DNA of 42,907 nucleotides from Bacilli bacterium (lineage in GTDB: Bacteria; Bacillota_I; Bacilli_A; RFN20; CAG-826). The stretch covers positions 1-42,907 of the forward strand of contig JAFSVB010000170.1 in assembly GCA_017450325.1 (NCBI GenBank), given 5' to 3'. Under the pieces are notes generated by a model. The model made no database searches, was not told the origin of the DNA, and saw nothing but the letters and a program-made list of their open reading frames with translations. Positions within the stretch are counted from its first letter, which is position 1; every line of letters starts with the position of its first letter. The translations under genes were made by a program, and so were the position numbers. Positions 6,095 to 42,474 of this stretch are shown here, in pieces.

Positions 6095-6869
6095 ATTAGA
6101 AACCGCCTTGCGCGCGGTCAAAGAAGCCGAAAAAGCGATTTTGGAGGTTTATGGAACCTCCTTTGATGTTGAGATCAAAGAAGATAACTCCCCCGTCACC
6201 ATGGCGGATAAGAAAGCGGATGACATCATCCGTCGCATCCTTTCCGAAGCGTTCCCCGAGGATGGATTCCTCACGGAGGAAAGCGTGGACACCATGGAAC
6301 GATTTAGCAAAAAGCGCATCTGGATCGTAGACCCCGTCGACGGCACGAAGGAATTCGTCTCCCGCAATGGGGAATTCACCACCAACGTCGCCTTATGCGA
6401 GGGACACGAAATTATCCTCGGCATCATCAACGCGCCCATTCTCAAGAAGACCTATTATGCCGTGAAAGGGCAGGGGTGCTTCCGCAAGGATGAGGATGGC
6501 GCCGTCACGAAGCTTCACGTCAGCGGCCGCGCAGATCATTTGCGCGCGATGCGCTCGATTTCCTTTTTCAAGCCGGAAGAAGCGGCGTTCATGGAAAAAA
6601 ACAAACGATATTTCGAGGGCGAGCCTACCCCGATTGGCGCCGCGCTGAAATTCTGCAGCCTCGCGGAGGGAAAGCACGACTTCCTCGTTCGCCTTGGCGG
6701 CAACACCAAAGAATGGGATGTCGCCGCGGGCGATATCATTGTCAAAGAAGCGGGCGGATTCGTTTGCGAGCCCACCGGCAAGGATTTCGTCTATAACCGC
6801 GTGGACGTCTATAACCGTCTTGGATACGCCATGGGCAATATCCGTCAAGATTGGATGCTTGATTTCTAG
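6081..6869 (+). CDS. cysQ: 3'(2'),5'-bisphosphate nucleotidase, CysQ-like (inositol monophosphatase fold)
   Basis: 262 residues. The family hydrolyses pAp or PAPS (or inositol phosphates) with two or three metal ions. Visible signatures: TMADKKAD, the EES metal ligand in FLTEESVD, DPVDGTKEF (the CysQ form of the IMPase motif), and WDVAAGDIIVKEAGG near the C-terminus. The start at 6081 is chosen because AGGGAG lies 8 nt upstream; it overlaps nrnA. The DPVDGTKEF form and the pairing with nrnA favour pAp over inositol phosphate as substrate; this is inference. Only a weak AGCG/CGCT hairpin follows. Confidence 0.85.
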   Translation: MLEHELETALRAVKEAEKAILEVYGTSFDVEIKEDNSPVTMADKKADDIIRRILSEAFPEDGFLTEESVDTMERFSKKRIWIVDPVDGTKEFVSRNGEFTTNVALCEGHEIILGIINAPILKKTYYAVKGQGCFRKDEDGAVTKLHVSGRADHLRAMRSISFFKPEEAAFMEKNKRYFEGEPTPIGAALKFCSLAEGKHDFLVRLGGNTKEWDVAAGDIIVKEAGGFVCEPTGKDFVYNRVDVYNRLGYAMGNIRQDWMLDF

Positions 6870-6957
6870 ATAGCGCTTTCATCGCTTTTTCGTATTCTGT
6901 CTATCGCGCGCCTGTGATTTGGGGTTATTATTTACTTACAAATAGGAGGAACGAACA

Positions 6958-7194
6958 ATGAAGGCTTTCTGCGATTGGATGGACGACCAGCCCAGAATCA
7001 TCAAGATTCTCTTCTGCTTGCCGATCATCGATATCCTTTGGGGAGTTTACCGTCTTGGTGGCGCTATCGCCAACAAGGATGTGGTCCACATTGTCCTCGC
7101 CGTACTCTGGATCATCTTTGCTGGATTCATCGGCTGGATTCTCGACCTCGTCTTCATCATCCTTACCGGACGTATCTGCTGGTTTAAGGAATAA
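6958..7194 (+). CDS. Small two-helix membrane protein of unknown function
   Basis: 78 residues with a strong AGGAGG site 8 nt before ATG, which supports a real gene. Two hydrophobic segments are seen at about residues 17-37 (IKILFCLPIIDILWGVYRL) and 45-70, separated by a short AIANKD turn, with a charged N-terminus and a FKE end. No catalytic motif is visible and I do not recognise a family with confidence; small proteins of this form are common in gut Bacillota. It has its own leader and is followed by a terminator, so it is probably monocistronic. Confidence 0.75.
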   Translation: MKAFCDWMDDQPRIIKILFCLPIIDILWGVYRLGGAIANKDVVHIVLAVLWIIFAGFIGWILDLVFIILTGRICWFKE

Positions 7195-10470: not shown

Positions 10471-11448
10471 ATGAAGGAAATCATCGTCAACAAACTCTCG
10501 TCGGGACAAAAAGCGGAGAAGTTCGTCCGCAAGTACCTTTCCGAAGCCCCGTTGGGGTTCATTTATAAGGCCTTCCGAAAGAAGGACGTTAAAGTGAATG
10601 GCCGATGGGTGGATAAAGACCATGTTCTTCAAGAAGGGGACGTCGTCCGCATATACGTGACCGATCAGCAACTCGATGATTTCAAGAAGCCGCGTCCCGT
10701 TACCAAGCAAGACCTACCATACCCGATCGCCTATGAAGACCGTGGCGTCCTCATCGTGGAGAAGCCGAAAGGGCTTTTGGTTTATGGCGACGCAACAGGC
10801 GTGCGAGAAACGCTTGGAAACGCGGTCTTGGACTATTTGTACCTCAAAGGAGAATACGACCCGGAGAACGCCGCTTTTACGCCTTCCCCAGCTCACCGGC
10901 TGGACCGCAATACGTCGGGACTAGTCGTCTATGGCAAGACCAACGAGGCATTACAGGAGCTGACGCTGCTATTTAAGGAACGCACCAAGCTTCATAAGCG
11001 TTACCTCGCGTTGACGGTGGGGGACATCACTACCGACGGCACCATCAACACTCCTCTTTGGAAAGACGCGAACAATGGTCGTGTCTATGTTCGGCCCATC
11101 GAACAAGGCGGAAAAGAAGCCATGACCAAGTACCATGTCGTTCGCCGCTATGGCGACTACACGCTCGTCGAAGTGGAGCTCATTACGGGCAGAACCCATC
11201 AAATCCGCGTCCATTTCGCCTCGATTGGCCATCCGCTCGTCGGCGACGAGAAATATGGCGATTTCGCTTCTTGTAGGCTCGTGAAGAAGCTTACGGGGCT
11301 CGAATCCCAGTTCCTTCACGCCTATAAACTCATTTTTGAGGATGTGGGCGGGGCCCTCTCTGAATTGCGAAATCGTGAAATCGTCTGTGCATTACCCGCA
11401 GACCTTCGAAAGGTCATTGAACAACTAACCGCCAAAGGCGCACAATAA
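10471..11448 (+). CDS. RluC/RluD-family pseudouridine synthase
   Basis: 325 residues from MKEIIVNKL; the frame is open slightly upstream but that part overlaps a TATACT box (10452-10457, preceded by TGG, an extended -10). An S4 RNA-binding domain (residues about 1-75) precedes the catalytic domain, which carries AHRLDRNTSGL with the catalytic Asp, and the later GRTHQIRVH motif. Enzymes of this family make pseudouridines in 23S rRNA or tRNA; which site is modified cannot be told. No Shine-Dalgarno sequence; leader predicted to be about 6-7 nt. It is followed 24 nt later by pgcA. Confidence 0.92.
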   Translation: MKEIIVNKLSSGQKAEKFVRKYLSEAPLGFIYKAFRKKDVKVNGRWVDKDHVLQEGDVVRIYVTDQQLDDFKKPRPVTKQDLPYPIAYEDRGVLIVEKPKGLLVYGDATGVRETLGNAVLDYLYLKGEYDPENAAFTPSPAHRLDRNTSGLVVYGKTNEALQELTLLFKERTKLHKRYLALTVGDITTDGTINTPLWKDANNGRVYVRPIEQGGKEAMTKYHVVRRYGDYTLVEVELITGRTHQIRVHFASIGHPLVGDEKYGDFASCRLVKKLTGLESQFLHAYKLIFEDVGGALSELRNREIVCALPADLRKVIEQLTAKGAQ

Positions 11449-11472
11449 AAAATAGGAGGCAAGTTTAACTTC

Positions 11473-13182
11473 ATGGACGTCAAAAAGAATTACGAACGCT
11501 GGCTGAATTCGCCACGCGTCAGCGAGGAAGATAAGAAGATCCTTCGCGAACTCTCTCAAGAACAAATCAACGACGCATTCTTTAAGAATGCCGAATTCGG
11601 GACCGGAGGCCTGCGCGGCGTCCTTGGCCCGGGCACCAACAGGGTCAATGTGCACACGGTCGGCCGCATCAGCGTCGGCTTCGCGCAATACCTCAAGAGT
11701 CGCTTCCCTGGCGGTAAGGCGGAGGCCATGGGCATCGCCATTTCCCACGATAACCGCTTCATGTCCCGCGAATTCACGTTACTCGCCGCGGATATCTTCA
11801 ATCGCATGGGCATCAAGGTCTATATCTTCGACGCTTTGCGCTCCACCCCAGAACTCTCCTTCGCCGTGCGCGACAAAGGATGCTGCGGTGGCATCATGAT
11901 CACCGCCTCCCACAACCCCAAGAACTATAACGGTTACAAGGTTTATGACGAAAAGGGCTGCCAGCTCATTCCTTCTCTCGTCGATAAGATGCTCAAGTTC
12001 ATCGACGCTTTGCCGGATGAGCTCTCCTACAAGGTCCCTGAGGCAAAGCAAAAAGGCGAACTCGTCACGCTTGGCCAAGAGACCGACGAGCGTTATTGGG
12101 AACTCGTGAAGAAAGTCCAGGTTCATCCCGAACTCGACAAGAAGGGCTTCAAGGTTATCTATAGTCCGCAGCACGGCGCTTCCTATGAAGGCGCGATGGC
12201 CGTGTTCTCTTCCCTCGGATACGAAATCATTCCGGTGAAGGAGCAGTGCGTCCATGATCCGAACTTCGGCGCGACCAAGTCCCCGAACCCTGAAGTCGCC
12301 CTCGCTTGGGAGCTCCCGCTTGCCTATGCGAGCAAGTACAATGCCCAACTCGTTGTCATGACCGATCCCGATGGCGACCGCTGCGGCCTCGCCTATCAAG
12401 GACACGATGGCCAATACCATCGCCTCACGGGCAACGAATCCGCCGCCTTGCTCATCGACTATATCCTCTCTGAAAAGAAAAAGGCGGGGGTTTTGCCTGC
12501 GAATTCCGTCATGTACGACACCATCGTTTCCTCGTCCTTAGGCAAGGAAGTTGCTCAGAGCTATGGCGTTTCCGTCGAATCCTTCCTTACGGGCTTCAAG
12601 TTCATCGGTTCCCGCATTGGCTACTACGAAGACGCGGGCAAGGGCCCGACCTTCGTCTTTGGCTATGAAGAATCCTATGGCTGCCTCGCCTCCGACTTCG
12701 TCCGCGACAAGGATGGCATCCAGGCGATTCTCCTTTACACCGAAATGGCTCTCTATTATTGCCGCAAGGGCATCGACCTCGGCGAAGCATATGAGGACCT
12801 ACAGAAGCGTTTTGGCTACCGCCTCGCGACGATGAAGGACATGTACTTCGAAGGCATGGAAGGCAACGCCAAGATGCAGCGTCTCATGAAGGATCTCCAC
12901 CGCAAACCCTGCAAGGAGATCAGCGGCATCAAAGTCGCCTCGGTCGAAGACTACCTCAGCGATGTGCGCACCTTCGAAAACGGCCGCACCGAAAAGATCG
13001 TCGGCCTCCCAGCCTCGGATGTCTTGAAATTCTTCCTCGCGGACGGTTCTACTCTTTGCATCCGTCCTTCTGGAACCGAACCGAAAGTGAAATACTACAT
13101 CGAGGTCAAGGGCAAGAAGGAAGAGCTAGAAGAAAAGGCCGAGCGCCTTTATGCCGACTTCGTCAAATCGCTTGGCATCTAA
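11473..13182 (+). CDS. pgcA: Phosphoglucomutase/phosphomannomutase (PgcA type)
   Basis: 569 residues, close to B. subtilis PgcA. It interconverts glucose 6-phosphate and glucose 1-phosphate. Motifs in order: TASHNPKNYNGYK (phosphoserine loop), DPDGDRCG (metal loop), a GYEESYGC sugar loop, and RPSGTEPKVKYY (phosphate-binding loop). An AGGAGG site is 13 nt before ATG, a rather long spacing, but no better start exists. It probably shares a transcript with the upstream pseudouridine synthase. Its TAA overlaps the stop of the convergent HAD gene by 4 nt, with no terminator between them. Confidence 0.95.
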   Translation: MDVKKNYERWLNSPRVSEEDKKILRELSQEQINDAFFKNAEFGTGGLRGVLGPGTNRVNVHTVGRISVGFAQYLKSRFPGGKAEAMGIAISHDNRFMSREFTLLAADIFNRMGIKVYIFDALRSTPELSFAVRDKGCCGGIMITASHNPKNYNGYKVYDEKGCQLIPSLVDKMLKFIDALPDELSYKVPEAKQKGELVTLGQETDERYWELVKKVQVHPELDKKGFKVIYSPQHGASYEGAMAVFSSLGYEIIPVKEQCVHDPNFGATKSPNPEVALAWELPLAYASKYNAQLVVMTDPDGDRCGLAYQGHDGQYHRLTGNESAALLIDYILSEKKKAGVLPANSVMYDTIVSSSLGKEVAQSYGVSVESFLTGFKFIGSRIGYYEDAGKGPTFVFGYEESYGCLASDFVRDKDGIQAILLYTEMALYYCRKGIDLGEAYEDLQKRFGYRLATMKDMYFEGMEGNAKMQRLMKDLHRKPCKEISGIKVASVEDYLSDVRTFENGRTEKIVGLPASDVLKFFLADGSTLCIRPSGTEPKVKYYIEVKGKKEELEEKAERLYADFVKSLGI

Positions 13183-31867: not shown

Positions 31868-33591
31868 AAGCATTAACGCCTTTAAAAAAATATAGGCTGA
31901 GGGTTATCCTCGCGCCCGCTTTGAAGGCGGTGGAATGCCTTTGCGAGCTCATCATACCCTTTTTGGTCCGCGCGATTATCGACGAAGGCCTCAATGCGCA
32001 GGGAAGCCATTACCAAGACCATGGGTACGTGCTCGGTTTATGCGGCGTCGTCTTTGGCCTATCGCTTTTCGGCTTTGCCTGCACGATGGTGACGCAATAT
32101 GTCGCCTCGCGGGTATCCACATCATTCTCCCTAGAACTTAAGCACAACATTTACGAGCAAATCGGTCGCGTGAGCCCTCTTCAACTAGAACGCTATGGGA
32201 AATCCAAAGCCCTGAACCTCGTCACCGCGGCTTCCTCCTCTTTGCAAATGGGGGTGCAGATGTTTATGCGTCTGCTCGTCCGTGCGCCATTTCTCGTTTT
32301 CGGGGCTATCGTCGCGGCTTTCATCGTGAACGTTTACGCTGGGTTAGTGGTCTTAGGGGCATTGACGTTATGCGCGCTCGTGATTTTCATCGTCGTGAAG
32401 ACAACGCCACGCGAATACACGAAACTGATGAATGAACTCGATGCTATCTCCTGCCTCGGAGACGACTTAATCGTCGGTACCCGCGTCGTCCGCGCATTTA
32501 ATAAACAGGCGGAAGTATCGAATGCGTTTCACGATGAGTCGGAGCGTTATCGGAAACAAGCGCTACGTCTATCGCGCATCAACGCTTTCATCAACCCGCT
32601 GACGTTTGGCCTAGTGAACCTCGCCACGGTCCTCGTGCTCTATCTCGGCTCCTTTGCTTACGGCAATACCCTGATTTCCGTCGGCTCCATCGTCGCGCTT
32701 ATTTCTTTCTTGACGCAGGCGCTCAACGCCTTGATTCAGTTCACCAGGCTGGTTACCTCGCTCTCCAAGGCTTACGCCGATAAGAAACGAATTGATGCGT
32801 TCTTAGCGATAGAGCCGGAGATCGTCGATGGCCCTTTAACGCAGGAACCTCCCATTTCTTTAGGCGAAGACCTTTATGCCCTCAAGGACGTCGATGTGTC
32901 TTTCGGTGGCGAGAGTCTCGCCTTAGGGAACATCAATGTTCATATTGCGAAAGGCTCCAGCGTTGGCATCATCGGGGGCACGGGTTCAGGCAAGTCCACT
33001 CTCCTAAGCCTGCTCCTTCGCTTTATCGATCCGACTTCAGGCGTAGTGACCTTTCATGGCCACGACATTCGCGACAGCAAACTTCGCGCGGTGCGCGCGG
33101 AAGTGGCCATGGTCAGCCAAAAGCCGCAACTATTCAAAGGGACAATTCGCGAGAACATCACTTTGGGGGAAGAATACGACGCCAAAGAAATCGAAAATGC
33201 GCTTAAGGATGCGCTTGCCTTCGAGTTCGTCCAAGGCAAAGACAAAGGGTTAGACGCCGCGGTCGATGAAGGGGGCACGAACTTCTCGGGCGGACAAAAG
33301 CAACGCCTTCTTATCGCCCGTGCTCTTTTGTCCTCAAGGCCGGTTCTAGTCTTGGATGACGCGACGAGCGCCTTGGACTACAAAAGCGATCTCTATGTGC
33401 GACAACAAATCAAAAAACGGGCGGGTTTGACGACGATTTTCGTATCGCAACGCGCAACGTCTATCAAGGATTGCGACAACATTTACGTCTTGGACAAGGG
33501 CAGAATCGTGGGCGAGGGCAAGCATGAGGAATTGCTTAGGTCCTGCGACGTGTACCGCGAAATATATGAAGCGCAGGTGAATCAACGATGA
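31864..33591 (+). CDS. ABC exporter half-transporter with degenerate ATP site (TMD-NBD)
   Basis: 575 residues: six-helix transmembrane domain (about 1-315) then a nucleotide-binding domain. Walker A GGTGSGKST (371-379), intact signature FSGGQ (474-478), Walker B VLVLDD where the catalytic Glu is Asp (D499), and the H-loop His replaced by Gln (Q529 in FVSQR). These changes mark the non-hydrolysing site of a heterodimeric exporter like TM287/288 or BmrCD. Overlaps its partner by 4 nt. Substrate unknown: drugs, lipids and peptides are all exported by this group. Confidence 0.93.
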   Translation: MKALTPLKKYRLRVILAPALKAVECLCELIIPFLVRAIIDEGLNAQGSHYQDHGYVLGLCGVVFGLSLFGFACTMVTQYVASRVSTSFSLELKHNIYEQIGRVSPLQLERYGKSKALNLVTAASSSLQMGVQMFMRLLVRAPFLVFGAIVAAFIVNVYAGLVVLGALTLCALVIFIVVKTTPREYTKLMNELDAISCLGDDLIVGTRVVRAFNKQAEVSNAFHDESERYRKQALRLSRINAFINPLTFGLVNLATVLVLYLGSFAYGNTLISVGSIVALISFLTQALNALIQFTRLVTSLSKAYADKKRIDAFLAIEPEIVDGPLTQEPPISLGEDLYALKDVDVSFGGESLALGNINVHIAKGSSVGIIGGTGSGKSTLLSLLLRFIDPTSGVVTFHGHDIRDSKLRAVRAEVAMVSQKPQLFKGTIRENITLGEEYDAKEIENALKDALAFEFVQGKDKGLDAAVDEGGTNFSGGQKQRLLIARALLSSRPVLVLDDATSALDYKSDLYVRQQIKKRAGLTTIFVSQRATSIKDCDNIYVLDKGRIVGEGKHEELLRSCDVYREIYEAQVNQR

Positions 33592-35315
33592 AACGCTTTC
33601 GCATGCTTTTACCCTATTTGAAGGAATCGAAGGCGATGATCGCCCTCGCGTTCTTCTTCGCGGCCGTCTCGGTCTTCTTCAAGATGGCGATCCCGTTTAT
33701 CACGGGCCTCGCCATCGACAAGATTCGCCTTGGGGATATGGACATCTCCCTCCACCTCGTCTTGATGGGTGGGTGCTTGATTCTAGGGTCGGCTTTCCGA
33801 TATTTCTTCGATCTCTTTACGGCTTATGTCGCCCAAAAGGCCGTCCAGAAAATGCGCAACGACCTTTTCGATGCCCTGAATCAAATGCCGGTCTCCTATC
33901 TAGATTCCCATTATCACGGCGACTTGCTTAGCCGTCTCGTCGGCGATATTGAAAACGTTCAAACCGGTCTCATCACGGGTGCGGGCGCTTTGTTCGAAGG
34001 CGTGGTGCAGGCCTTGGTCACTTTGGCGTTCATGTTCGTCCTTAATTGGCTCCTCGCATTGACCGTTATCGTCTTGACCCCGATCTCCGTCATTGTCTCG
34101 CGCTTTATTTCCTCCAGGAATTCCAAATACTTCAAACGTCAGAGCGCGCGCCTTGGTGAATTGTCCAATCGTACCTTAGAGACGCTGGATACCATCGAGG
34201 CCGTCCACGCCTATGGGCTTTTTGAAAAGCAATCCGTTTATTTTGATGAGCGAAACGAGGAGTATCGAAGCGCTTCCTTTAAGGCGATGTTCGCGGCGAG
34301 TTGGATCAATCCCATGACCCGTTTGGTGAATAACTTCATCTATGCGGCGGTCATCATTTTCGGAGCATGCCTATTGCTCTTCCCGGATTCGTTCACCTTC
34401 ACCGGCGTCGCCTTCACCGTCGGCATGCTTTCTTCATTCCTCACGTATTCCTATCAATACATGACGCCTTTCAATGAAATCGCCGATGCGATGAGCGAGG
34501 TGCTCTTTGCCCTTGCTTCGCTAGGTCGCGTCCATGAAGTCATCCATGCTCCGCGCGACGTCGATGAGGGCGTGACGCCGCTAGGGAAGAGCATCGACCA
34601 GCTCGAAGCGAAAGAAATCGTCTTCTCCTACGATGGCAAAAGGACCATCATCGACGGCTTCGATCTGGATATCTACAAAGGCCATAAGATCGCGCTCGTC
34701 GGCACGACGGGTTGCGGAAAGACCACCATCATCAATCTCTTGATGCGCTTCTATGACCCTCAGCAGGGCGGTTTCTATTTCAATGGCGTGCTCGGGCAAG
34801 ACGCGGCGAAAAAAGAGATTCGTTCCCATGTGGGTATGGTGCTGCAGGACACGTGGCTTAGCCATGGCACGGTCCGGGATAACATCGCATATGGCAAAAA
34901 AGACGCGACGATGGAAGAAGTGGTGGCCGCTGCGAAAAAAGCGCATGCCGATGAGTTTATTCGGCGCATGGAGAACGGATACGATACGGTAATCTCTTCG
35001 AGTTCTGGCTTATCCATGGGCGAAAAACAGCTCTTATGCGTCGCGCGTATCATGCTTATCGAACCTGAAATCATTCTCTTGGATGAGGCGACGTCCAATA
35101 TTGACCTCCGCACGGAGCTCCAACTCGCGGATGCTTTCGACGAGCTGATGCGCGGCAAGACCTCTCTTGTGGTTGCCCATCGACTCTCCACCATCCGAAA
35201 CGCGGACCATATCCTTGTCATGGACAAAGGCAGAATCATCGAGCAGGGGAACTTCGCGGAACTCATGGCGAAAAACGGGTTCTTCGCGGAACTCTATAAC
35301 GCGCAGCTTGCGTGA
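33588..35315 (+). CDS. ABC exporter half-transporter with active ATP site (TMD-NBD)
   Basis: 575 residues, the same length as its partner. Transmembrane domain then Walker A GTTGCGKTT (372-380), a degenerate signature LSMGE (475-479), Walker B IILLDE with the catalytic Glu (E500) and the H-loop His in VVAHRLSTI. The pattern is the exact complement of the partner: this subunit supplies Walker motifs and partner supplies the good LSGGQ to form one active site, while its poor signature pairs with the partner's poor Walker B. The stop is followed directly by the stop of the convergent GNAT gene. Confidence 0.94.
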   Translation: MKRFRMLLPYLKESKAMIALAFFFAAVSVFFKMAIPFITGLAIDKIRLGDMDISLHLVLMGGCLILGSAFRYFFDLFTAYVAQKAVQKMRNDLFDALNQMPVSYLDSHYHGDLLSRLVGDIENVQTGLITGAGALFEGVVQALVTLAFMFVLNWLLALTVIVLTPISVIVSRFISSRNSKYFKRQSARLGELSNRTLETLDTIEAVHAYGLFEKQSVYFDERNEEYRSASFKAMFAASWINPMTRLVNNFIYAAVIIFGACLLLFPDSFTFTGVAFTVGMLSSFLTYSYQYMTPFNEIADAMSEVLFALASLGRVHEVIHAPRDVDEGVTPLGKSIDQLEAKEIVFSYDGKRTIIDGFDLDIYKGHKIALVGTTGCGKTTIINLLMRFYDPQQGGFYFNGVLGQDAAKKEIRSHVGMVLQDTWLSHGTVRDNIAYGKKDATMEEVVAAAKKAHADEFIRRMENGYDTVISSSSGLSMGEKQLLCVARIMLIEPEIILLDEATSNIDLRTELQLADAFDELMRGKTSLVVAHRLSTIRNADHILVMDKGRIIEQGNFAELMAKNGFFAELYNAQLA

Positions 35316-35888
35316 TTACCAATACGCCTCGCGGCATAGGCCCGTCGGGCGGTAACGCTTAGCGAGGATTGCCTTCTTTTTCTCGCCCCATTCCAAGCCG
35401 CCGGGGTTGCCGCAAGGAAAGAAGCCATGAGCCTTGAAGAATGCCATGGCGGACTGATTCTCCTCTTCTAGGAAGAGCAGCCAAGTCGCGCCTTTATAGG
35501 TGGCGAAAAGGCTTTTGAGCAACTCGTCTCCCAACCCTTGTCTTTGGTAGGCGGGGAGGACGAACAAGGCGCGCAGAATCAACAAGGGCTCGCCGCGATG
35601 ACCCGCGTCTTCTAGAATGTCGCTTGTCTTCCGATAACTGCGGGTCTTGGGAAAGAACTCATCTTCCATGGAACGAGCGATGATGGCAAAGCCTAGCACG
35701 GTTTTGCGTAGCTTGATGACGAGGACGTGGTGGTCCTTGATGTCTTCGCTTAGCCGTTGCAAAAGGTCGTCGGCGCGTTCTTCCTCCATGCGACTATTCG
35801 CGGGAAGGGCTTCACTGGATGAAGCAAAACACGAGACGACCTCCCGGTAGTCTTCCATAGTCGCAAGATGGATGCTCCACGAAATCAT
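35316..35888 (-). CDS. GNAT-family N-acetyltransferase
   Basis: 190 residues from MISWSIHLATMED. The acetyl-CoA-binding motif is in LRALFVLPAYQRQGLGDELLKSL (Q-x-x-G-L-G), with the FLEEENQSAMAFFKAHGFFPCG strand-helix typical of the fold's second half. The substrate is not evident. TATCAT ends 6 nt before the ATG and there is no Shine-Dalgarno sequence. No space separates its stop from that of the second ABC gene. Confidence 0.9.
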   Translation of the reverse strand: MISWSIHLATMEDYREVVSCFASSSEALPANSRMEEERADDLLQRLSEDIKDHHVLVIKLRKTVLGFAIIARSMEDEFFPKTRSYRKTSDILEDAGHRGEPLLILRALFVLPAYQRQGLGDELLKSLFATYKGATWLLFLEEENQSAMAFFKAHGFFPCGNPGGLEWGEKKKAILAKRYRPTGLCREAYW

Positions 35889-35894
35889 GAGGAC

Positions 35895-35900
35895 ATGATA
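35895..35900 (-). promoter_or_regulatory. -10 box of the GNAT gene, predicted leaderless start
   Basis: Minus-strand TATCAT, 6 nt before ATG. Confidence 0.5.
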
Positions 35901-36001
35901 ACCCAAAAAAGAAGGAAACTAGTCCAAAAATGTTTATTTGAGGCCATAGGCCTATGAAGTCGACGTTCTTTTCTATAAAATCTAGGGAAAAGGGGGAGAA
36001 T

Positions 36002-39000
36002 ATGGGCGCGTGCTACATTTATAAAAACGTGAATGCGTCCGCAGAGATGACTCTTTTCTCCGCCGAGGACCGTAACGCGGAGGACTATCGCGACCTCCTC
36101 GAGAAAATCGGCGCTTTTGAGATGCTCTACCTATCCCAAAAGCATCACGCTCACCCATTCGGCCATAAAGAAAGCAAAGCCGAGACCGAGGCTAGATTGC
36201 AGTTCAACGTTGAGAAATGGTATTTGGTGGCCGCCATCTTTGACCCCAATCACCGCGAAGGCTTTTCTTCCGCGCTTCTCGTGCATAAAGAATTGGAATC
36301 TTTTGCCATCGTCGTTGAGCTGACGGGCTTCCAAATCACCGATTCTATTTTTGGCGAGTGGGCAGTCGAGGATGAGTTCCACGAAATTGAACCGATGCAG
36401 GAGGTTCTGGATTTCTTCGGCATAAAGAAGCAGCCTGCCTCGCCTCAGCCCAAGGCGGTTGCCAGCAAAGAAGAGCCGACTATCATAACTCCTACCTTCG
36501 AGCCCGTTCGGAAGGGTGGCATTCAAAAGATCGTTCTTCAAGGAGATACGAAATCGCATGAAGGACAGACGTTCGATGACCAAGAGGATGCCTCGACCTA
36601 TGACGAAGAAGACACGCCCGTATCCATCCACGTTGAGACGCCTAGCTTCGTCGCGAACTCTTCCAAGAAGCCGCGGAATCTAGACGCGATAACGCCCGTA
36701 AAACCCTCTTCAATTTCAAAACGTAAGGATTTTTCTTCCGACCCATCTCCCGTCTTTTCCCCAAGCAGCAACAAGAAACCGCGAAACCTTGACGAGGATT
36801 TTCCTAAGAAACCACATCCAAAAAAGATCGATAGAATCGAGAAAAAAGAAGAAATCGCACAACCGATAGAAGATTTAGGCTCTGCCGAACCTGCCACGAT
36901 TGAATATCCGCAGTTCGTCGCGAATTCCTCAAAGAAGCCAAAGAATTTAGACGGAGTATCATCTGCAAAACCCCATCCAATTTCCAAACAAGAGGCAAAA
37001 GTCGAAAGTCCTTCGACCTCCTTTGCTCCAAGCAGCAACAAGAAGCCAAAGAACCTCGACCAGCCACAATCCCATTGGCAGGAGGTCGCCCTCATTCGTC
37101 TCCTTCCGGACCGAAAGTCACCAAACTGCAGGACCTTGGTCAATGACCACAAGGACGAACGCATTGTCGGTATCTTCGACTCTGCGCGACGGAAGCTTGA
37201 GACTTTGGACGCCCTCCAATTAACGAATACCTGCAGTTTTTCGCCAAGCCTTCCAGAGGGCTCTTTATGGAAAAGGGCTATAAAGCAATTTCGGGTCGAT
37301 CAGTGGAATATCCTTGCCTTGAATGTGGATGCGTACAACCGTCCAACGGCTTTTGTCCTTTCCGATGTTGCCCAGCCGGAGTTTTGCTTGATCGTCCTCC
37401 CGAATGGCCGCATCTTGTCCATCGGGTTCAATGGGGTTTGCGTCCATTCCCCTTACCATAGCTTTGAGGACCTTTTAAAAACCTTGGAGGAACCAGAGCA
37501 GGCTCTAGAACCTCCTTTTGAGCCTTCAAAGAAGGAGGAAGCGCCCGAAGAGCAACAAACGCTAGCGGAAATGGAAGCCGTGCCTGATGAAGACGAGGAA
37601 CGTCCTCTAATTGCGAGAAGACGCGTCTTCGTCACCAACGCTTTCCTAAAAGCCCAAGACCGTTTTGCGCGTAAATACCACATGGCCGCGGAGCGTGATT
37701 TCGAGGACGTCGTGAAGACGTTGATCGTATCCGATGACGATGAGCTCGCCGCCTTCTTAAAAGGGCATGACTCCAAGCCCATCCGCACGGAACATGATGT
37801 CACCATCCTCAAGATGCGCTTTGGTTCTTCCGCCGATTACGCCGCTTCGAGGCTCTTCTATTGCCGCGGCTATGACTTGCGGCGCAAGATGGATGCGAAC
37901 GACATCCTTTTGCTCGGCGTTTCCGACCAGGGGGAACACGAGGAACAAGGTGAGGTCAGCCGTCTTTTCGCCCGAATGTTCGAGCCAAAAAGGGATTTGC
38001 TGCTTTACCAGAAACTCCTCCCCATCCATAAAGATGCGGACCTTGATCAGCTCGCCTACATGTCCTCGAAGCAGTTCTCTTATCTCGATGACGCCCGCCA
38101 AGCGATGCCGATGGCGTTCCTAGGATCCGCGGGTACTGGAAAGACGCTGATATCGCTGCAGCATTATCTTTCCTTGCTCGAGGAAGGAAAGAAAGTCCTC
38201 TACCTGACCTATCAAAAGGCATTGTGCGACGAAGTGCGGAAAACACTAAAAGAACTGCGTGCGGACAACGTGGAGGCCATGACGTATCGTGATCTTTGCT
38301 TCTCTATCCTCGGCGAGGGGAGGGCGAGCGCCATGCGGACGAAAAAACGTTTTCGGCGTTGGTTTATCAACTATGCGAGCAAGACCGGTTCCGCCCAAGC
38401 GAAGCTGCGCGAGGTCGGCCCGACCATCGAAGACCAATTCATGATCTGCTATGTGTTCTATCGCGGCATCATCGACGGTTCGCGGAAAGAATACAAGACG
38501 CGGCGCGGGGCCATCTTATCCAAGGAACAGTTCCTCGCGGCGGTTCGCCAAGAGAAGGGCTTTTCTCAAAAAGCAAAAGAAGTGGTCTATGACGTCGCCC
38601 TTGCCTACGAGAAACATCTTGTGAATTATGCGGGCACCACCGATAACAAACTCGCCTATGAGATCCTTACGATGGGAAAGAAGGCTCAACGCTACGACGC
38701 CGTTGTCATCGATGAGTTTCAGGACCTTTCGGAAATCCAATTCATGGCCGTCGTCAGCCTGCTCAAGGTAAGCTATCCCTTACCGCTATTCATTTATGGC
38801 GACGAGAACCAGGCCATCAACCCGACCATCTTCAATTTCAAGAACACCCAGCAGATTCTATTCGAGATGTTCAAGAAGGACATCCGCTTTAAAGTGACGG
38901 AGTTGAACGACTCCTTCCGCTCTGGCCCGAACCTCGTCCACTATATCAATGACGTGAATAAGGTGAAGCGCCTCGCCATCGGCGCGCGCAGCCAACAAGA

Positions 39001-39919
39001 AGAACTTGAAGTCTCTCTGCGCGAAGACGAGGAGGACTTATTCGCCACCCTCGTCGAAGGCGAGGACAATCTCAAGGAACTTCTAAAAATCTGCAGCCGT
39101 TCCGAAAAGGACGTGGTGTTTATCTTCCCATCCGCAACAAGAAGAGAAAAGGCGGAAAAGCAATTTTCGTCTATCCTCGGGGAAGGCTTCGTCCATTCTT
39201 CTTTCCTCTCCGTCGAGGAGGCCAAAGGACGCGAGTGGGATTCCGTCGTCCTCGTCGATTTCTTCTCTTCTTCTAGAGAGCTTTTCGACGCGATGCTTGG
39301 CGAGGACCGCGCTGGGCACCATTCGACCATTCACCGCATGCTCTTCAATCGGTTCTATGTCGCGCTTACCAGGGCGCAAAACCGCATCGTCGTATATGAA
39401 TCGGATGCATCGGACCTGATACGCAAGAAGCTGTTGAAGGGGTTGCTGACCTTGCCTAGCCTCAAGCAGCTTGAGGATTATTTCCAAGGCGGCGCATCGG
39501 ATGAAGCATGGTCACAGTTTGGGGACAAACTCATGCATTCTCGGCGTTACTCCGCCGCTTATAAAGCCTTTTCACGAACCGAGGGCGAAGAAGCTAAGGA
39601 GAAAGCGGAACTATGCCTTCGCTACATCAAGGCGGAGCACGACGAACTATCCTACGAAGAGGCTCGAGACCTCTACCTGGAGCAATTGGATTATGAATAC
39701 CTTTCCGACCTATATGAGGAAATGGGATATCATGACCGCGCGACTTTCTTGGATATAGCGCGCGACCGCACGGACGCCGGCTACGTCTTAGAGGCTTATC
39801 ACGCGCTAGAAAAAGACTTGTCGCTTTTGGAGAAAAAAGTATTCTTCGCCCTATGCTGCCATAAATTGCAGCAACGGATAGAGGGACTTAGGAGTAAATT
39901 ATTCAGGAGGCCATCATGA
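36002..39919 (+). CDS. Large UvrD/Rep-type helicase with duplicated N-terminal domain and motif repeats
   Basis: 1305 residues; start chosen for the AGGGGGAG site just upstream, with TATAAA near 35974. From the N-terminus: domain A (about 1-145); a low-complexity linker with four FxxxSxKKPxNLD repeats (216-228, 252-264, 305-317, 341-353); domain B (about 357-500), which resembles domain A; an acidic segment; a region around 550-640 that may have a RelE-like fold (weak inference); the helicase core with Walker A GSAGTGKT (708-715), DEFQD (904-908), YGDENQ, SFRSGPNLV and VALTRA (1120-1125); and a helical, TPR-like C-terminal ~150 residues. Superfamily 1A motors move 3'-5' on single-stranded DNA. 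It overlaps the coiled-coil gene by 4 nt and so heads a three-gene unit. Confidence 0.85.
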   Translation: MGACYIYKNVNASAEMTLFSAEDRNAEDYRDLLEKIGAFEMLYLSQKHHAHPFGHKESKAETEARLQFNVEKWYLVAAIFDPNHREGFSSALLVHKELESFAIVVELTGFQITDSIFGEWAVEDEFHEIEPMQEVLDFFGIKKQPASPQPKAVASKEEPTIITPTFEPVRKGGIQKIVLQGDTKSHEGQTFDDQEDASTYDEEDTPVSIHVETPSFVANSSKKPRNLDAITPVKPSSISKRKDFSSDPSPVFSPSSNKKPRNLDEDFPKKPHPKKIDRIEKKEEIAQPIEDLGSAEPATIEYPQFVANSSKKPKNLDGVSSAKPHPISKQEAKVESPSTSFAPSSNKKPKNLDQPQSHWQEVALIRLLPDRKSPNCRTLVNDHKDERIVGIFDSARRKLETLDALQLTNTCSFSPSLPEGSLWKRAIKQFRVDQWNILALNVDAYNRPTAFVLSDVAQPEFCLIVLPNGRILSIGFNGVCVHSPYHSFEDLLKTLEEPEQALEPPFEPSKKEEAPEEQQTLAEMEAVPDEDEERPLIARRRVFVTNAFLKAQDRFARKYHMAAERDFEDVVKTLIVSDDDELAAFLKGHDSKPIRTEHDVTILKMRFGSSADYAASRLFYCRGYDLRRKMDANDILLLGVSDQGEHEEQGEVSRLFARMFEPKRDLLLYQKLLPIHKDADLDQLAYMSSKQFSYLDDARQAMPMAFLGSAGTGKTLISLQHYLSLLEEGKKVLYLTYQKALCDEVRKTLKELRADNVEAMTYRDLCFSILGEGRASAMRTKKRFRRWFINYASKTGSAQAKLREVGPTIEDQFMICYVFYRGIIDGSRKEYKTRRGAILSKEQFLAAVRQEKGFSQKAKEVVYDVALAYEKHLVNYAGTTDNKLAYEILTMGKKAQRYDAVVIDEFQDLSEIQFMAVVSLLKVSYPLPLFIYGDENQAINPTIFNFKNTQQILFEMFKKDIRFKVTELNDSFRSGPNLVHYINDVNKVKRLAIGARSQQEELEVSLREDEEDLFATLVEGEDNLKELLKICSRSEKDVVFIFPSATRREKAEKQFSSILGEGFVHSSFLSVEEAKGREWDSVVLVDFFSSSRELFDAMLGEDRAGHHSTIHRMLFNRFYVALTRAQNRIVVYESDASDLIRKKLLKGLLTLPSLKQLEDYFQGGASDEAWSQFGDKLMHSRRYSAAYKAFSRTEGEEAKEKAELCLRYIKAEHDELSYEEARDLYLEQLDYEYLSDLYEEMGYHDRATFLDIARDRTDAGYVLEAYHALEKDLSLLEKKVFFALCCHKLQQRIEGLRSKLFRRPS
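36647..37060 (+). repeat. Four coding repeats of a 13-residue KKP-NLD motif
   Basis: FVANSSKKPRNLD (36647-36685), FSPSSNKKPRNLD (36755-36793), FVANSSKKPKNLD (36914-36952) and FAPSSNKKPKNLD (37022-37060). Repeats 1 and 3, and 2 and 4, are each 89 codons apart, showing duplication of a two-motif unit; DNA has diverged mostly at synonymous positions. Confidence 0.92.
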
Positions 39920-40320
39920 TGGACAAATCAGACGAACTATTCACAAAGACGCTTGAAGAGCTATCCGCGATGTCCGCGCGGCTAGAGGAGATCTCGAAAG
40001 TGGAGGAGACCTTTCAAAGCCGCATGGACGAACTCACCGCCAAAGTGGAAATCCTTTACGGTAGACAAAAAGAAATCGTCGATGCATTCAACCTCCTGAA
40101 TTCGGGAATCAGCGATTTGGAAAAATGCTTATCTTCCGTTGATGTTCTTGAACAAAAAATAGGGGATTTGCGGGAGAATCTCGCAAAAATCGATGTCCAA
40201 GGCCTCAGTGAAAAACTGGATAATACCTCCGATGAAATCGGCCGTTCGTTCAGCAAACTCGTCGCGGCGGAGAAGCGTTCCAAAGAAGCGAAAGAGAAGA
40301 AAAACCTCGGCAAGAAATGA
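39916..40320 (+). CDS. Small coiled-coil protein between helicase and Vsr-Nudix genes
   Basis: 134 residues. AGGAGG is 5 nt before the ATG at 39916 and 8 nt before a second ATG at 39919; either may be used. Nearly the whole sequence has heptad-like spacing of Leu, Ile and Val with many Glu, Lys and Asp (LEELSAMSARLEEISKVEE, LEQKIGDLRENLAKIDV), predicting a long coiled coil, and a lysine-rich tail (KEAKEKKNLGKK). No cysteine-metal or catalytic motif. It overlaps both neighbours by ATGA, so the three proteins are made together; it is a candidate bridge between the two enzymes (inference). Confidence 0.8.
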   Translation: MMDKSDELFTKTLEELSAMSARLEEISKVEETFQSRMDELTAKVEILYGRQKEIVDAFNLLNSGISDLEKCLSSVDVLEQKIGDLRENLAKIDVQGLSEKLDNTSDEIGRSFSKLVAAEKRSKEAKEKKNLGKK

Positions 40321-41237
40321 AACGGGATCCTGCGATTATCCATAAGACGATGTCCGCTATCCGAGGAAAGGATACCGGCATCGAAAAGAAGCTGAGAAAG
40401 GCTTTGACGGAACAGGGCATTCGATATCGGCTCTATTCTAAATCCGTCATTGGCCATCCAGACCTTTTGCTGCCTTCTTTGAAGATTGCTATTTTTTGCG
40501 ACTCGGAGTTTTGGCACGGCTACCGCTTTGAGGAAAATGTCGCGCAGCTTGAAAAACTCGACGCGTATTGGCTGAAGAAGATTCGTCGGAACATCGCCCG
40601 CGACCAAGAAGTGAACAAGGCGCTCCAGGAGCAGGGTTATACCGTTCTTCGCTATTGGGGCTTCCAGATAAACAAAGAACTTCCTTCCGTCGTCGCAGAC
40701 ATCCTCTCGACGATTGAGCAGCGGAAACAGATCGAGGGTTGGCGCTCCTCCATCCAAGAACTTACGACCCTTACGTATATTGAAAAAGACGACTGTTATC
40801 TATTGCTTCATCGAGTGAAGGAGAAGTCGGATGTAAACGAGGGAAAATGGATTGGCGTCGGTGGCCATCTCGAGCCCGGCGAGACCCATGTCCAAGCCCT
40901 GAAACGGGAAGTGTTCGAAGAGACGGGGCTCACCGTTAAGAAATTCCATTATTTCGGCTATGTCGATTTCCTCAACGATCAATACCCGCCCGAACGCATG
41001 TATCTATCCAAAGTTACGGAGTTTGAGGGGGAACTTATCGACTGTAACGAAGGCGAATTGGCTTGGATTAAGAAAAGCGAGATGATGTCTCTTCCCATGT
41101 GGGAGGGCGATAAGCACTTCCTGCCTTTATTAGAGGACGCGAGCAAACCGCCTGTTCGCATGTCGGTCATTTATCGCGGTGGCGAACTCGCCGCGGTCGA
41201 AGGTCCATTTTACCCTGCGAAAAAGAGGAAGAAGTGA
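40317..41237 (+). CDS. Vsr-type DNA endonuclease fused to a Nudix hydrolase
   Basis: 306 residues in one continuous frame. Residues 1-140 match the very-short-patch-repair endonuclease: SAIRGKDTGIEKKLRKAL (Glu of the active site), GHPDLLL with D49 equivalent to the catalytic D51 of E. coli Vsr, FCDSEFWHGY with W66-H67 equivalent to W68-H69, then KKIRRNIARDQEVNKAL and VLRYWGFQI. The zinc ligands of E. coli Vsr are absent, as in other Bacillota relatives. From about residue 148 a Nudix domain follows, with a complete Gx5Ex7REUxEExGU box at 183-205, of the MutT/8-oxo-dGTPase style. The single chain would pair DNA nicking with nucleotide cleansing. Overlaps the coiled-coil gene; no DNA methylase is in the window. 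Confidence 0.85.
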   Translation: MKRDPAIIHKTMSAIRGKDTGIEKKLRKALTEQGIRYRLYSKSVIGHPDLLLPSLKIAIFCDSEFWHGYRFEENVAQLEKLDAYWLKKIRRNIARDQEVNKALQEQGYTVLRYWGFQINKELPSVVADILSTIEQRKQIEGWRSSIQELTTLTYIEKDDCYLLLHRVKEKSDVNEGKWIGVGGHLEPGETHVQALKREVFEETGLTVKKFHYFGYVDFLNDQYPPERMYLSKVTEFEGELIDCNEGELAWIKKSEMMSLPMWEGDKHFLPLLEDASKPPVRMSVIYRGGELAAVEGPFYPAKKRKK

Positions 41238-41243
41238 GATAAT
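41235..41243 (+). promoter_or_regulatory. Extended -10 made from the Vsr-Nudix stop codon
   Basis: TGA-GATAAT: the stop codon TGA (41235-41237) provides the TGn element before GATAAT (41238-41243). The identical 9-mer, in the same relation to a stop codon, precedes rpoE at 4519. The ATG at 41251 is 7 nt downstream. Confidence 0.5.
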
Positions 41244-41250
41244 GAACGCC

Positions 41251-41841
41251 ATGGACGAGAAAAAGCCGACCGTTGATATTGAACATTCGCAAATCTATGG
41301 ACTCGCAACGGTCTTGGGTTTGATGACAAAGGCGTTTGAAGATTGGGACGCATCCCTTTTCGTCGCGCCCCATGACCGGTCCGTTTCCGCTTTGCTTGTA
41401 TGCGTCTTTTTGCTCGACCGTTCCTTGCAGGGGGATTTGTTCCAATCTGCGACCGGAACGTTGTTCGACGTCGCGTCAAAGCGGGCCATTATGGTAAATA
41501 GTCCCAAAAAGGTGGAATGGCCCTTGTGGGATAACTCTACGCTGAAGCATCCTGAGCTCGCCCCCGTTTATGACCTTGGCATCGCTTTGGCCGCGTGGAA
41601 CCTCGCGGCGAAGCAAGACGAATTGCCCCCTGAGATGTTCCTCGGGCCGCTGTTCTCGCTTGCGGGAATCATCTCCGAAGGCGTGGACCATGGTTATTAC
41701 TTAGAAGACAAAACGACTCGCAAAGCCTATCAAGAGCAGCGGGAGCGCCTCGCACAAAGCCATGGCGGTGAAGAAGAGTTCAAGAAAGCCTTAAAAGCAC
41801 AGCTTGAATCGATCGCCAGCACTCTGGAAAGCATGAAATAA
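41251..41841 (+). CDS. Uncharacterised protein between the two Nudix genes
   Basis: 196 residues from MDEKKPTVDIEHSQ; an ATG at 41242 is in frame but would overlap the -10 box. The protein is probably soluble and largely helical (LATVLGLMTKAFEDWDASLF, YDLGIALAAWNLAAKQDELPPEMF, and a charged C-terminal helix), with no metal or nucleotide motif that I can see and no transmembrane helix of clear strength. I do not recognise the family. It may be transcribed from its own leaderless promoter as well as from the helicase unit. Its position suggests, but does not show, a link to the Vsr-Nudix enzyme. Confidence 0.7.
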   Translation: MDEKKPTVDIEHSQIYGLATVLGLMTKAFEDWDASLFVAPHDRSVSALLVCVFLLDRSLQGDLFQSATGTLFDVASKRAIMVNSPKKVEWPLWDNSTLKHPELAPVYDLGIALAAWNLAAKQDELPPEMFLGPLFSLAGIISEGVDHGYYLEDKTTRKAYQEQRERLAQSHGGEEEFKKALKAQLESIASTLESMK

Positions 41842-41868
41842 CTTCGCAAAAATCGGACGAATTTGAAT

Positions 41869-42474
41869 ATGAAATGGCTATTAAAAGACATTAGAAAAGA
41901 GACGGACCACCGGTTCCTGAACTTCTTTACATTCACCTATTCAGTGGAAAAGGATGGTGAGGAATCGCTCTATCCGTATTTCCTGGCTTCGCGCCACGAA
42001 CAGGAATCGCTCGTTGCACGTACCGCGAACTTCCGTCGCCCTGACGGTGTCTTAATGGCTGTTATTCAAGAAGAGCCCGTGCCCTCTATCTTGCTCATTG
42101 AGCAGTTCCGCCCCCCGCTGAATGCGCGGGTCATCGAGTTCCCAGCTGGGCTGCTCGAAGATAGCGACTCAAATGAGATTGAGGCCGCCAAGCGAGAATG
42201 CGTGGAAGAGGCGGGGGTCGTCATTGATGACGTGCGCCTGCTTTGTCCTGCTTCGCCGACATCGTCCGGACTAAGCGACGAAATGGTTTCCATCGTCGAA
42301 GGTAGGGTGGCCCATTTAACCCAACGCCACCTTGAACGGTTCGAGGACATCCAAGCGCGGTTTATTCCGCTGACGGAAATCCCTGCGATGCTCGATGATC
42401 CGAACCTGCTCATTGCCGTCAATGTGCGGCTCACGCTTCTTTATCTATTGGAGCGCTACCGCAAAGAGGACTGA
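41869..42474 (+). CDS. Nudix hydrolase, ADP-ribose pyrophosphatase-like
   Basis: 201 residues from MKWLLKDIRK; a TTG two codons earlier is also in frame. The order of segments fits ADP-ribose pyrophosphatases: SILLIEQFRPPLNARVIEFPAGLLED, then AAKRECVEEAGV (the REUxEExGU half of the Nudix box) and SPTSSGLSDEMVSIVEG, the usual post-box motif. The spacer between the first Gly and the first Glu of the Nudix box is longer than normal by about four residues. It cleaves ADP-ribose or a related dinucleotide to AMP plus a phosphate. It ends 2 nt before the next gene. Confidence 0.88.
   Translation: MKWLLKDIRKETDHRFLNFFTFTYSVEKDGEESLYPYFLASRHEQESLVARTANFRRPDGVLMAVIQEEPVPSILLIEQFRPPLNARVIEFPAGLLEDSDSNEIEAAKRECVEEAGVVIDDVRLLCPASPTSSGLSDEMVSIVEGRVAHLTQRHLERFEDIQARFIPLTEIPAMLDDPNLLIAVNVRLTLLYLLERYRKED

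Follow-up and report, generated by a model that had tools for sequence, protein, structure and literature searches.

A Vsr-type endonuclease joined to an MTH1/MutT-like Nudix domain is encoded by a core gene of Candidatus Alloenteromonas, a genus apparently devoid of MutS1 and MutL

The window (the whole stretch of DNA analysed, 42,907 nucleotides) belongs to a 2.38-Mb assembly of 232 contigs (95.8% complete), placed by named contigs in Candidatus Alloenteromonas (g1), a genus of uncultured gut Bacilli that our search of open-access texts found mentioned in only one paper. It carries, at positions 40317–41237 of the plus strand, a gene for a protein of 306 aa (plus stop), identified by its reading frame and by profile searches. 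The sequence-only reading of this DNA had described one uninterrupted frame of 306 codons with a Vsr part and a Nudix part, and such a frame, running unbroken from ATG to TGA, is indeed present. The protein consists of (i) a zinc-less Vsr domain (residues ~1–135; 40317–40721, plus strand), with Asp (D62) at the position of E. coli His64, (ii) a joining helix, whose end corresponds to positions 40722–40757 (plus strand), and (iii) an MTH1/MutT-like Nudix domain (residues ~148–300; 40758–41216, plus strand).

Both assignments come from profile searches and from a structure model. Residues 4–71 matched the Pfam Vsr family PF03852 (E 4e-21) and residues 3–115 the NCBIfam model TIGR00632 (113.1 bits against a cut-off of 97.85), while residues 161–271 matched the Pfam NUDIX family PF00293 (E 9e-17). 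The AlphaFold2 model, built from an alignment of 46 sequences, had a pLDDT of 92.5 and a pTM of 0.85. According to DSSP, a single long helix (residues 122–144) leads from the Vsr into the Nudix domain, and pLDDT is 96–98 at the end of this helix. Model residues 1–137 resemble DNA-bound E. coli Vsr (1cw0; Z 15.9, rmsd 2.9 over 135 residues, 32% identity), and residues 144–301 resemble human MTH1 (Z 21.0, 1.8–2.0 Å over ~150 residues) and Bacillus halodurans MutT (3fk9; Z 20.8). The best 50 Foldseek matches of the whole model were MTH1-like Nudix proteins only, because the Nudix domain fills this list; the Vsr match was obtained in a second comparison.

The fusion gene is preceded on the plus strand by genes for a UvrD/SF1-type helicase of 1321 aa (35954–39919; PF00580, E 1.5e-13) and for a coiled-coil-like protein of 134 aa (39916–40320). 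The helicase gene overlaps the coiled-coil gene by 4 bases (39916–39919), and the stop codon of the latter overlaps the fusion start, also by 4 bases (ATGA, 40317–40320). Loci L184, L194, L196, L197, L198 and L200 show this gene order too, including the 4-base overlap at which the fusion gene begins; at other loci of the genus, both upstream genes are replaced or missing. The helicase likely shares an operon with the fusion gene in the window species and in about half of the genus. This enzyme is GajB/AbiO-like and resembles the GajB, AbiO and Nhi helicases. Its N-terminal part bears repeats of the type F..SS.KKP.NLD, and in other species proteins of 430–520 aa with the same repeats, lacking the helicase, occupy its place (loci L181, L186, L188, L190 and L192).

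Further to the left lie an ABC transporter gene (33588–35315, plus strand), a conserved neighbour by which the locus can be recognised in both the genus and its sister genus, and a GNAT acetyltransferase gene (35316–35906, minus strand), which is conserved in the genus and also present at a Vsr-only locus (L038). Downstream of the fusion gene there is a conserved gene of unknown family (41242–41841, plus strand), whose homologues are found downstream at L184–L187, L197, L198 and L200, and for which Pfam, NCBIfam and PADLOC searches gave no match. Two genes downstream of the fusion (41863–42474, plus strand) we found a second, unrelated Nudix gene, similar to those of ADP-sugar pyrophosphatases, which stays near the fusion in several species.

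The same fusion is encoded in 23 of 25 congeneric genomes and in a further 6 genomes of the genus found in a separate search (29 in total, mostly incomplete metagenome-assembled genomes), in most cases at the same locus, and it also occurs in separately assembled named contigs. These occurrences rule out a frameshift or an assembly error, which had been named as a way in which the architecture might prove spurious. The two congeners without it are G004 (92% complete) and G018 (59% complete); in one genome (G012) the gene is broken off by the contig end. Twenty-two aligned fusion proteins, including that of the window, showed 49–80% identity to the window protein, and both halves are under purifying selection (pN 0.12–0.30 versus pS 0.69–0.86). 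The full-length fusion was not found in 50,697 phage records, and the plasmid records contained no clear full-length copy: a single record, from a Marinobacter plasmid, covers 80% of the query at 26.5% identity; that plasmid is annotated with separate genes for vsr and a type II restriction enzyme, and we took the match as a chance extension. The fusion gene is a vertically inherited core gene of the genus at a fixed locus, which argues against defence, and the suggestion of the sequence-only reading that its nuclease may act on foreign DNA found no support.

Alignment with E. coli Vsr confirmed the catalytic set proposed from the window alone: E23 (of GIEKK), D49, W66 and H67 correspond to E25, D51, W68 and H69 of the E. 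coli enzyme, and D96 is the equivalent of D97. The active-site residues E23, H67 and D96 are invariant across the genus, as are M12, F65 and W66, the counterparts of the wedge residues M14, F67 and W68. Within the 22 aligned fusion proteins the invariant positions comprise E23, F65-W66-H67, N92 and D96, and D49 (codon 40461–40463, plus strand; equivalent of the active-site Asp D51) is kept in 21 of 22, being replaced by Asn only in L016. In other respects the domain departs from the E. coli enzyme. The residues C66, H71, H73 and C117, the zinc ligands of the E. coli Vsr structure, are replaced by E64, Y69, F71 and F116, respectively, and the replacement of these ligands and of H64 (D62 in the window protein) extends throughout the genus. 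The fusion thus shares with Vsr enzymes (TIGR00632/PF03852; structures 1cw0 and 1vsr; variants of the V.NgoAXIII type) the fold, the equivalents of E25, D51, H69 and D97 and the M14/F67/W68 wedge, but differs from E. coli Vsr in lacking the zinc site, in having Asp for H64 and in bearing a Nudix domain.

The zinc-less type is common: it accounts for most of the close Vsr relatives found in Bacilli and on viral contigs. Among 26 such genes on viral contigs (L232–L257), a motif search revealed 11 that have a C5 methyltransferase no more than ~3 kb away. V.NgoAXIII of Neisseria, which has Asp at the His64 position, has been reported to cut T:G in any sequence context (PMC6116569), and its H64-to-D exchange is given in a published comparison of residues (PMC12907096); the kinship of the fusion Vsr to V.NgoAXIII rests on this reported exchange. 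The wedge residues of the T:G-specific Vsr are kept, and the proposal that the nuclease acts on mismatches caused by oxidised bases found no support.

The Nudix box (residues 183–205; 40863–40931, plus strand) is complete, as had been noticed in the window: it fits the full GX5EX7REUXEEXGU pattern, and its catalytic positions G183, E189, R197, E198, E201 and E202 are invariant in the 22 fusion proteins. The earlier label "MutT-like" could be made more precise. By fold the domain is MTH1-like (including the C-terminal strands), and W117 and D120 of MTH1 are matched by the invariant W262 and D265; in contrast, N33 and D119 are replaced by I179 and G264, and the MutT equivalog cut-offs were missed (TIGR00586, 33.7 of 97.9 bits). 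In MTH1 these four residues (N33, W117, D119, D120) contact the base. With Ile and Gly at the N33 and D119 positions, the nucleotide substrate may differ from that of MTH1, and 8-oxo-dGTP as the substrate is a guess.

The Nudix half, which unlike MTH1 sits behind a Vsr domain, belongs to a subfamily of ~150 aa that is widespread in Clostridia as a stand-alone gene, with ~50% identity to it among the matches listed; members of this subfamily are annotated as 8-oxo-dGTP diphosphatase, including in plasmid records. Clostridial members of this subfamily occur as fusions as well, with Maf (L039, L040, L049), TrmB (L056), UDPGP (L095) or a second Nudix domain (L045, L047, L074). The Maf-Nudix, TrmB-Nudix and double-Nudix proteins resemble the Vsr-Nudix protein in their Nudix partner, but they have no DNA-nicking domain. 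Clostridia were covered by a contig scan (at least 80 loci, mostly Nudix-only), in which a Clostridial fusion of low identity could have been missed.

In textbook accounts Vsr is linked to 5-methylcytosine and to MutL and MutS, MutL being a known stimulator of Vsr. The genus departs from this setting. MutS1 (TIGR01070) exceeded the cut-off in none of the 25 g1 genomes, in which only partial, MutS2-like matches were seen, whereas elsewhere in the order it did so in 14 of the 16 genomes searched; the same figures (0/25 versus 14/16) were obtained for MutL. Among 245 genomes of the order 70 have MutS1, and no Vsr-bearing genome of g1 or of the sister genus g23 is one of them. Judging from these profile searches, MutS1 and MutL seem to be missing entirely from Candidatus Alloenteromonas, which has only MutS2. 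The loss extends beyond the fusion carriers: g23 for the most part has a lone Vsr, neither Vsr nor MutS1 occurs in several genera of the family, and in g51, a genus from a different family within the order, Vsr and MutS1 occur together. The missing MutS and MutL hence form the background of the fusion rather than a proof of its role.

As regards methylation, the absence of a methylase from the vicinity of the gene, pointed out from the window, could be extended to the whole genome, in which (at 95.8% completeness) no PF00145 match was found. PF00145 matches were present in 9 of the 25 g1 genomes and absent from 16, the latter including six fusion carriers that are at least 90% complete, the window's genome among them. 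No C5 methyltransferase was found at 20 fusion loci with ~8 kb flanks. The fusion therefore differs from E. coli Vsr and its Dcm-type very-short-patch (VSP) repair not only in the zinc site and H64, but also in the missing linked methyltransferase and in a genome without MutS1 and MutL. A contrasting arrangement was observed in the same family at L179, where a canonical zinc-type Vsr (6103–6513) and a C5 methyltransferase (11108–12313) are part of a McrBC-like defence island. MutY was near or over the cut-off in 14 of 25 g1 genomes, including that of the window, and part of the oxidised-guanine pathway is thus separately present.

In g1 and g23 the locus has a common order, i.e. w32 gene – ABC – ABC – [GNAT] – [variable genes] – Vsr. 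Most g23 genomes carry Vsr alone at this place (e.g. L038), and a fusion was found in two, G163 and G157; the 123-aa N-terminal extensions of the Vsr proteins in L163 and L164 probably represent read-through of a non-coding frame before the real start, and these proteins were counted as Vsr alone. In quick trees based on few columns, all g1 fusions grouped together by their Vsr part (support 96), and the Vsr parts of G163 and G157 fell among the Vsr-only proteins of g23, while their Nudix parts fell among the fused Nudix domains of g1. This pattern fits an old resident Vsr that would have acquired a Nudix domain, followed by recombination or repeated loss. For G163 and G157 the trees allow both a gain of the Nudix domain by recombination and an older fusion that was repeatedly lost.

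A second linkage of Nudix and Vsr was detected in g51. In all seven Vsr-carrying genomes of this genus, Vsr is immediately preceded by a Nudix of another type (PKGHIE...GE), as overlapping genes in six and as an N-terminal, Nudix-first fusion in one (G090, L165). These arrangements were located at L165 (6847–7698), L166 (~6647–7078), L169 (6866–7294), L170 (6314–6733) and L284–L286. The long frame in L166 was rejected as a fusion, its Nudix gene overlapping in another frame. The g51 pair shares with the g1 fusion the coupling of a zinc-less Vsr to Nudix, but differs in the type of Nudix, in the order of the two parts, in the presence of MutS1 in the same genomes and in the position of its Vsr proteins, which form their own branch in the Vsr tree. 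Most genomes of g51 and g5 have a Nudix of this type, whether or not they carry Vsr, so that in g51 it was Vsr that was added to the Nudix, opposite to what happened in g1. The g51 linkage is apparently independent, and, being differently built, it offers an independent comparison for the g1 fusion.

The reading that we tentatively prefer, and to which we assign slightly less than an even chance, is that the protein is a mutation-avoidance enzyme working in two steps, nicking at T:G mispairs and clearing of damaged purine dNTPs, and that it does so where MutS and MutL are absent and 5-methylcytosine methyltransferases mostly so. The Vsr domain would bind duplex DNA at T:G mispairs, probably largely irrespective of sequence context, and would nick beside the T; resynthesis of a short patch would then follow, as it does in VSP repair. 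The Nudix domain would act before incorporation, hydrolysing damaged purine dNTPs (8-oxo-dGTP or a related nucleotide) to monophosphates. Together, the two would guard the genome against mispairs with no need for the usual partners of Vsr. We infer the two activities, their substrates and a joint purpose of the joining from the retained catalytic residues, the folds and the genomic setting.

The main rival holds that the joining has no mechanism behind it: two active and independent housekeeping enzymes, with nothing handed from one to the other, would have been fused because this Nudix subfamily is prone to fusion or because it is convenient to express them together. The subfamily does fuse readily, as its Clostridial Maf, TrmB, UDPGP and double-Nudix proteins demonstrate, so that the joining may carry no mechanism, and most genomes of the sister genus manage with Vsr alone at the same locus. 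Against this, the fusion has remained unsplit in almost every species of the genus despite deep divergence, the only two examined congeners without it including one that is 59% complete, and Nudix and Vsr have been linked a second time outside the family, there with a Nudix of another type and in the opposite order. We regard this rival as a serious possibility, if on balance a doubtful one.

Two other explanations fit less well than the preferred reading and a fusion without mechanism. Since MutS and MutL are absent and methylases are absent from 16 of 25 genomes, classical Dcm-type VSP repair seems unlikely to be the main job of the protein. Such repair would act on T:G mispairs arising by deamination of 5-methylcytosine made by an unlinked or horizontally passing methyltransferase, the Nudix domain being incidental. 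It would be in line with the PF00145 matches in 9 of 25 genomes, with the methyltransferases that often adjoin related zinc-less Vsr genes and with Caulobacter VsrA, which works with an unlinked methyltransferase (PMC12907096). Nevertheless, the fusion is near-universal in a genus in which the window's genome and five other carriers of at least 90% completeness have no PF00145 match, a methyltransferase was found near none of 20 fusion loci, and MutL, the stimulator, is missing; we consider this explanation improbable. Even less credit is given to a defence module, in which the helicase, the coiled-coil protein and the endonuclease-Nudix protein would act jointly against phage or modified foreign DNA. 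The kinship of the helicase to GajB, AbiO and Nhi, the listing of Vsr and Nudix models by PADLOC and the operon-like 4-base overlaps of the three genes in several species point in this direction, but the fusion belongs to the genus core and keeps its chromosomal locus, whereas its helicase and coiled-coil neighbours are present in some species and not in others, and the phage and plasmid records yielded no full-length copy and no clear full-length copy, respectively.

Both domains belong to known families, and what appears to be new is their combination and its genomic setting. Our search of open-access texts, in which absence is weak evidence, turned up no description of a Vsr-Nudix protein, in agreement with the earlier remark that the combination was undescribed. 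A more far-reaching version of the preferred reading, which we hold to be rather unlikely, is that the protein is a compact mismatch-avoidance enzyme independent of MutS, MutL and methylation, whose halves would share one problem, i.e. mispairs of damaged or misincorporated bases, in the nucleotide pool and in DNA. Such an enzyme might have helped the lineage to live without canonical repair, and the same need might have led Nudix and Vsr to become coupled on more than one occasion.

In the case described here, Vsr is a core gene of a genus in which MutL and MutS are missing and methylases mostly missing, and it is joined to a predicted nucleotide sanitiser. The fusion therefore allows a direct test of whether Vsr-type nucleases can act as general mismatch repair in bacteria without MutS and MutL.
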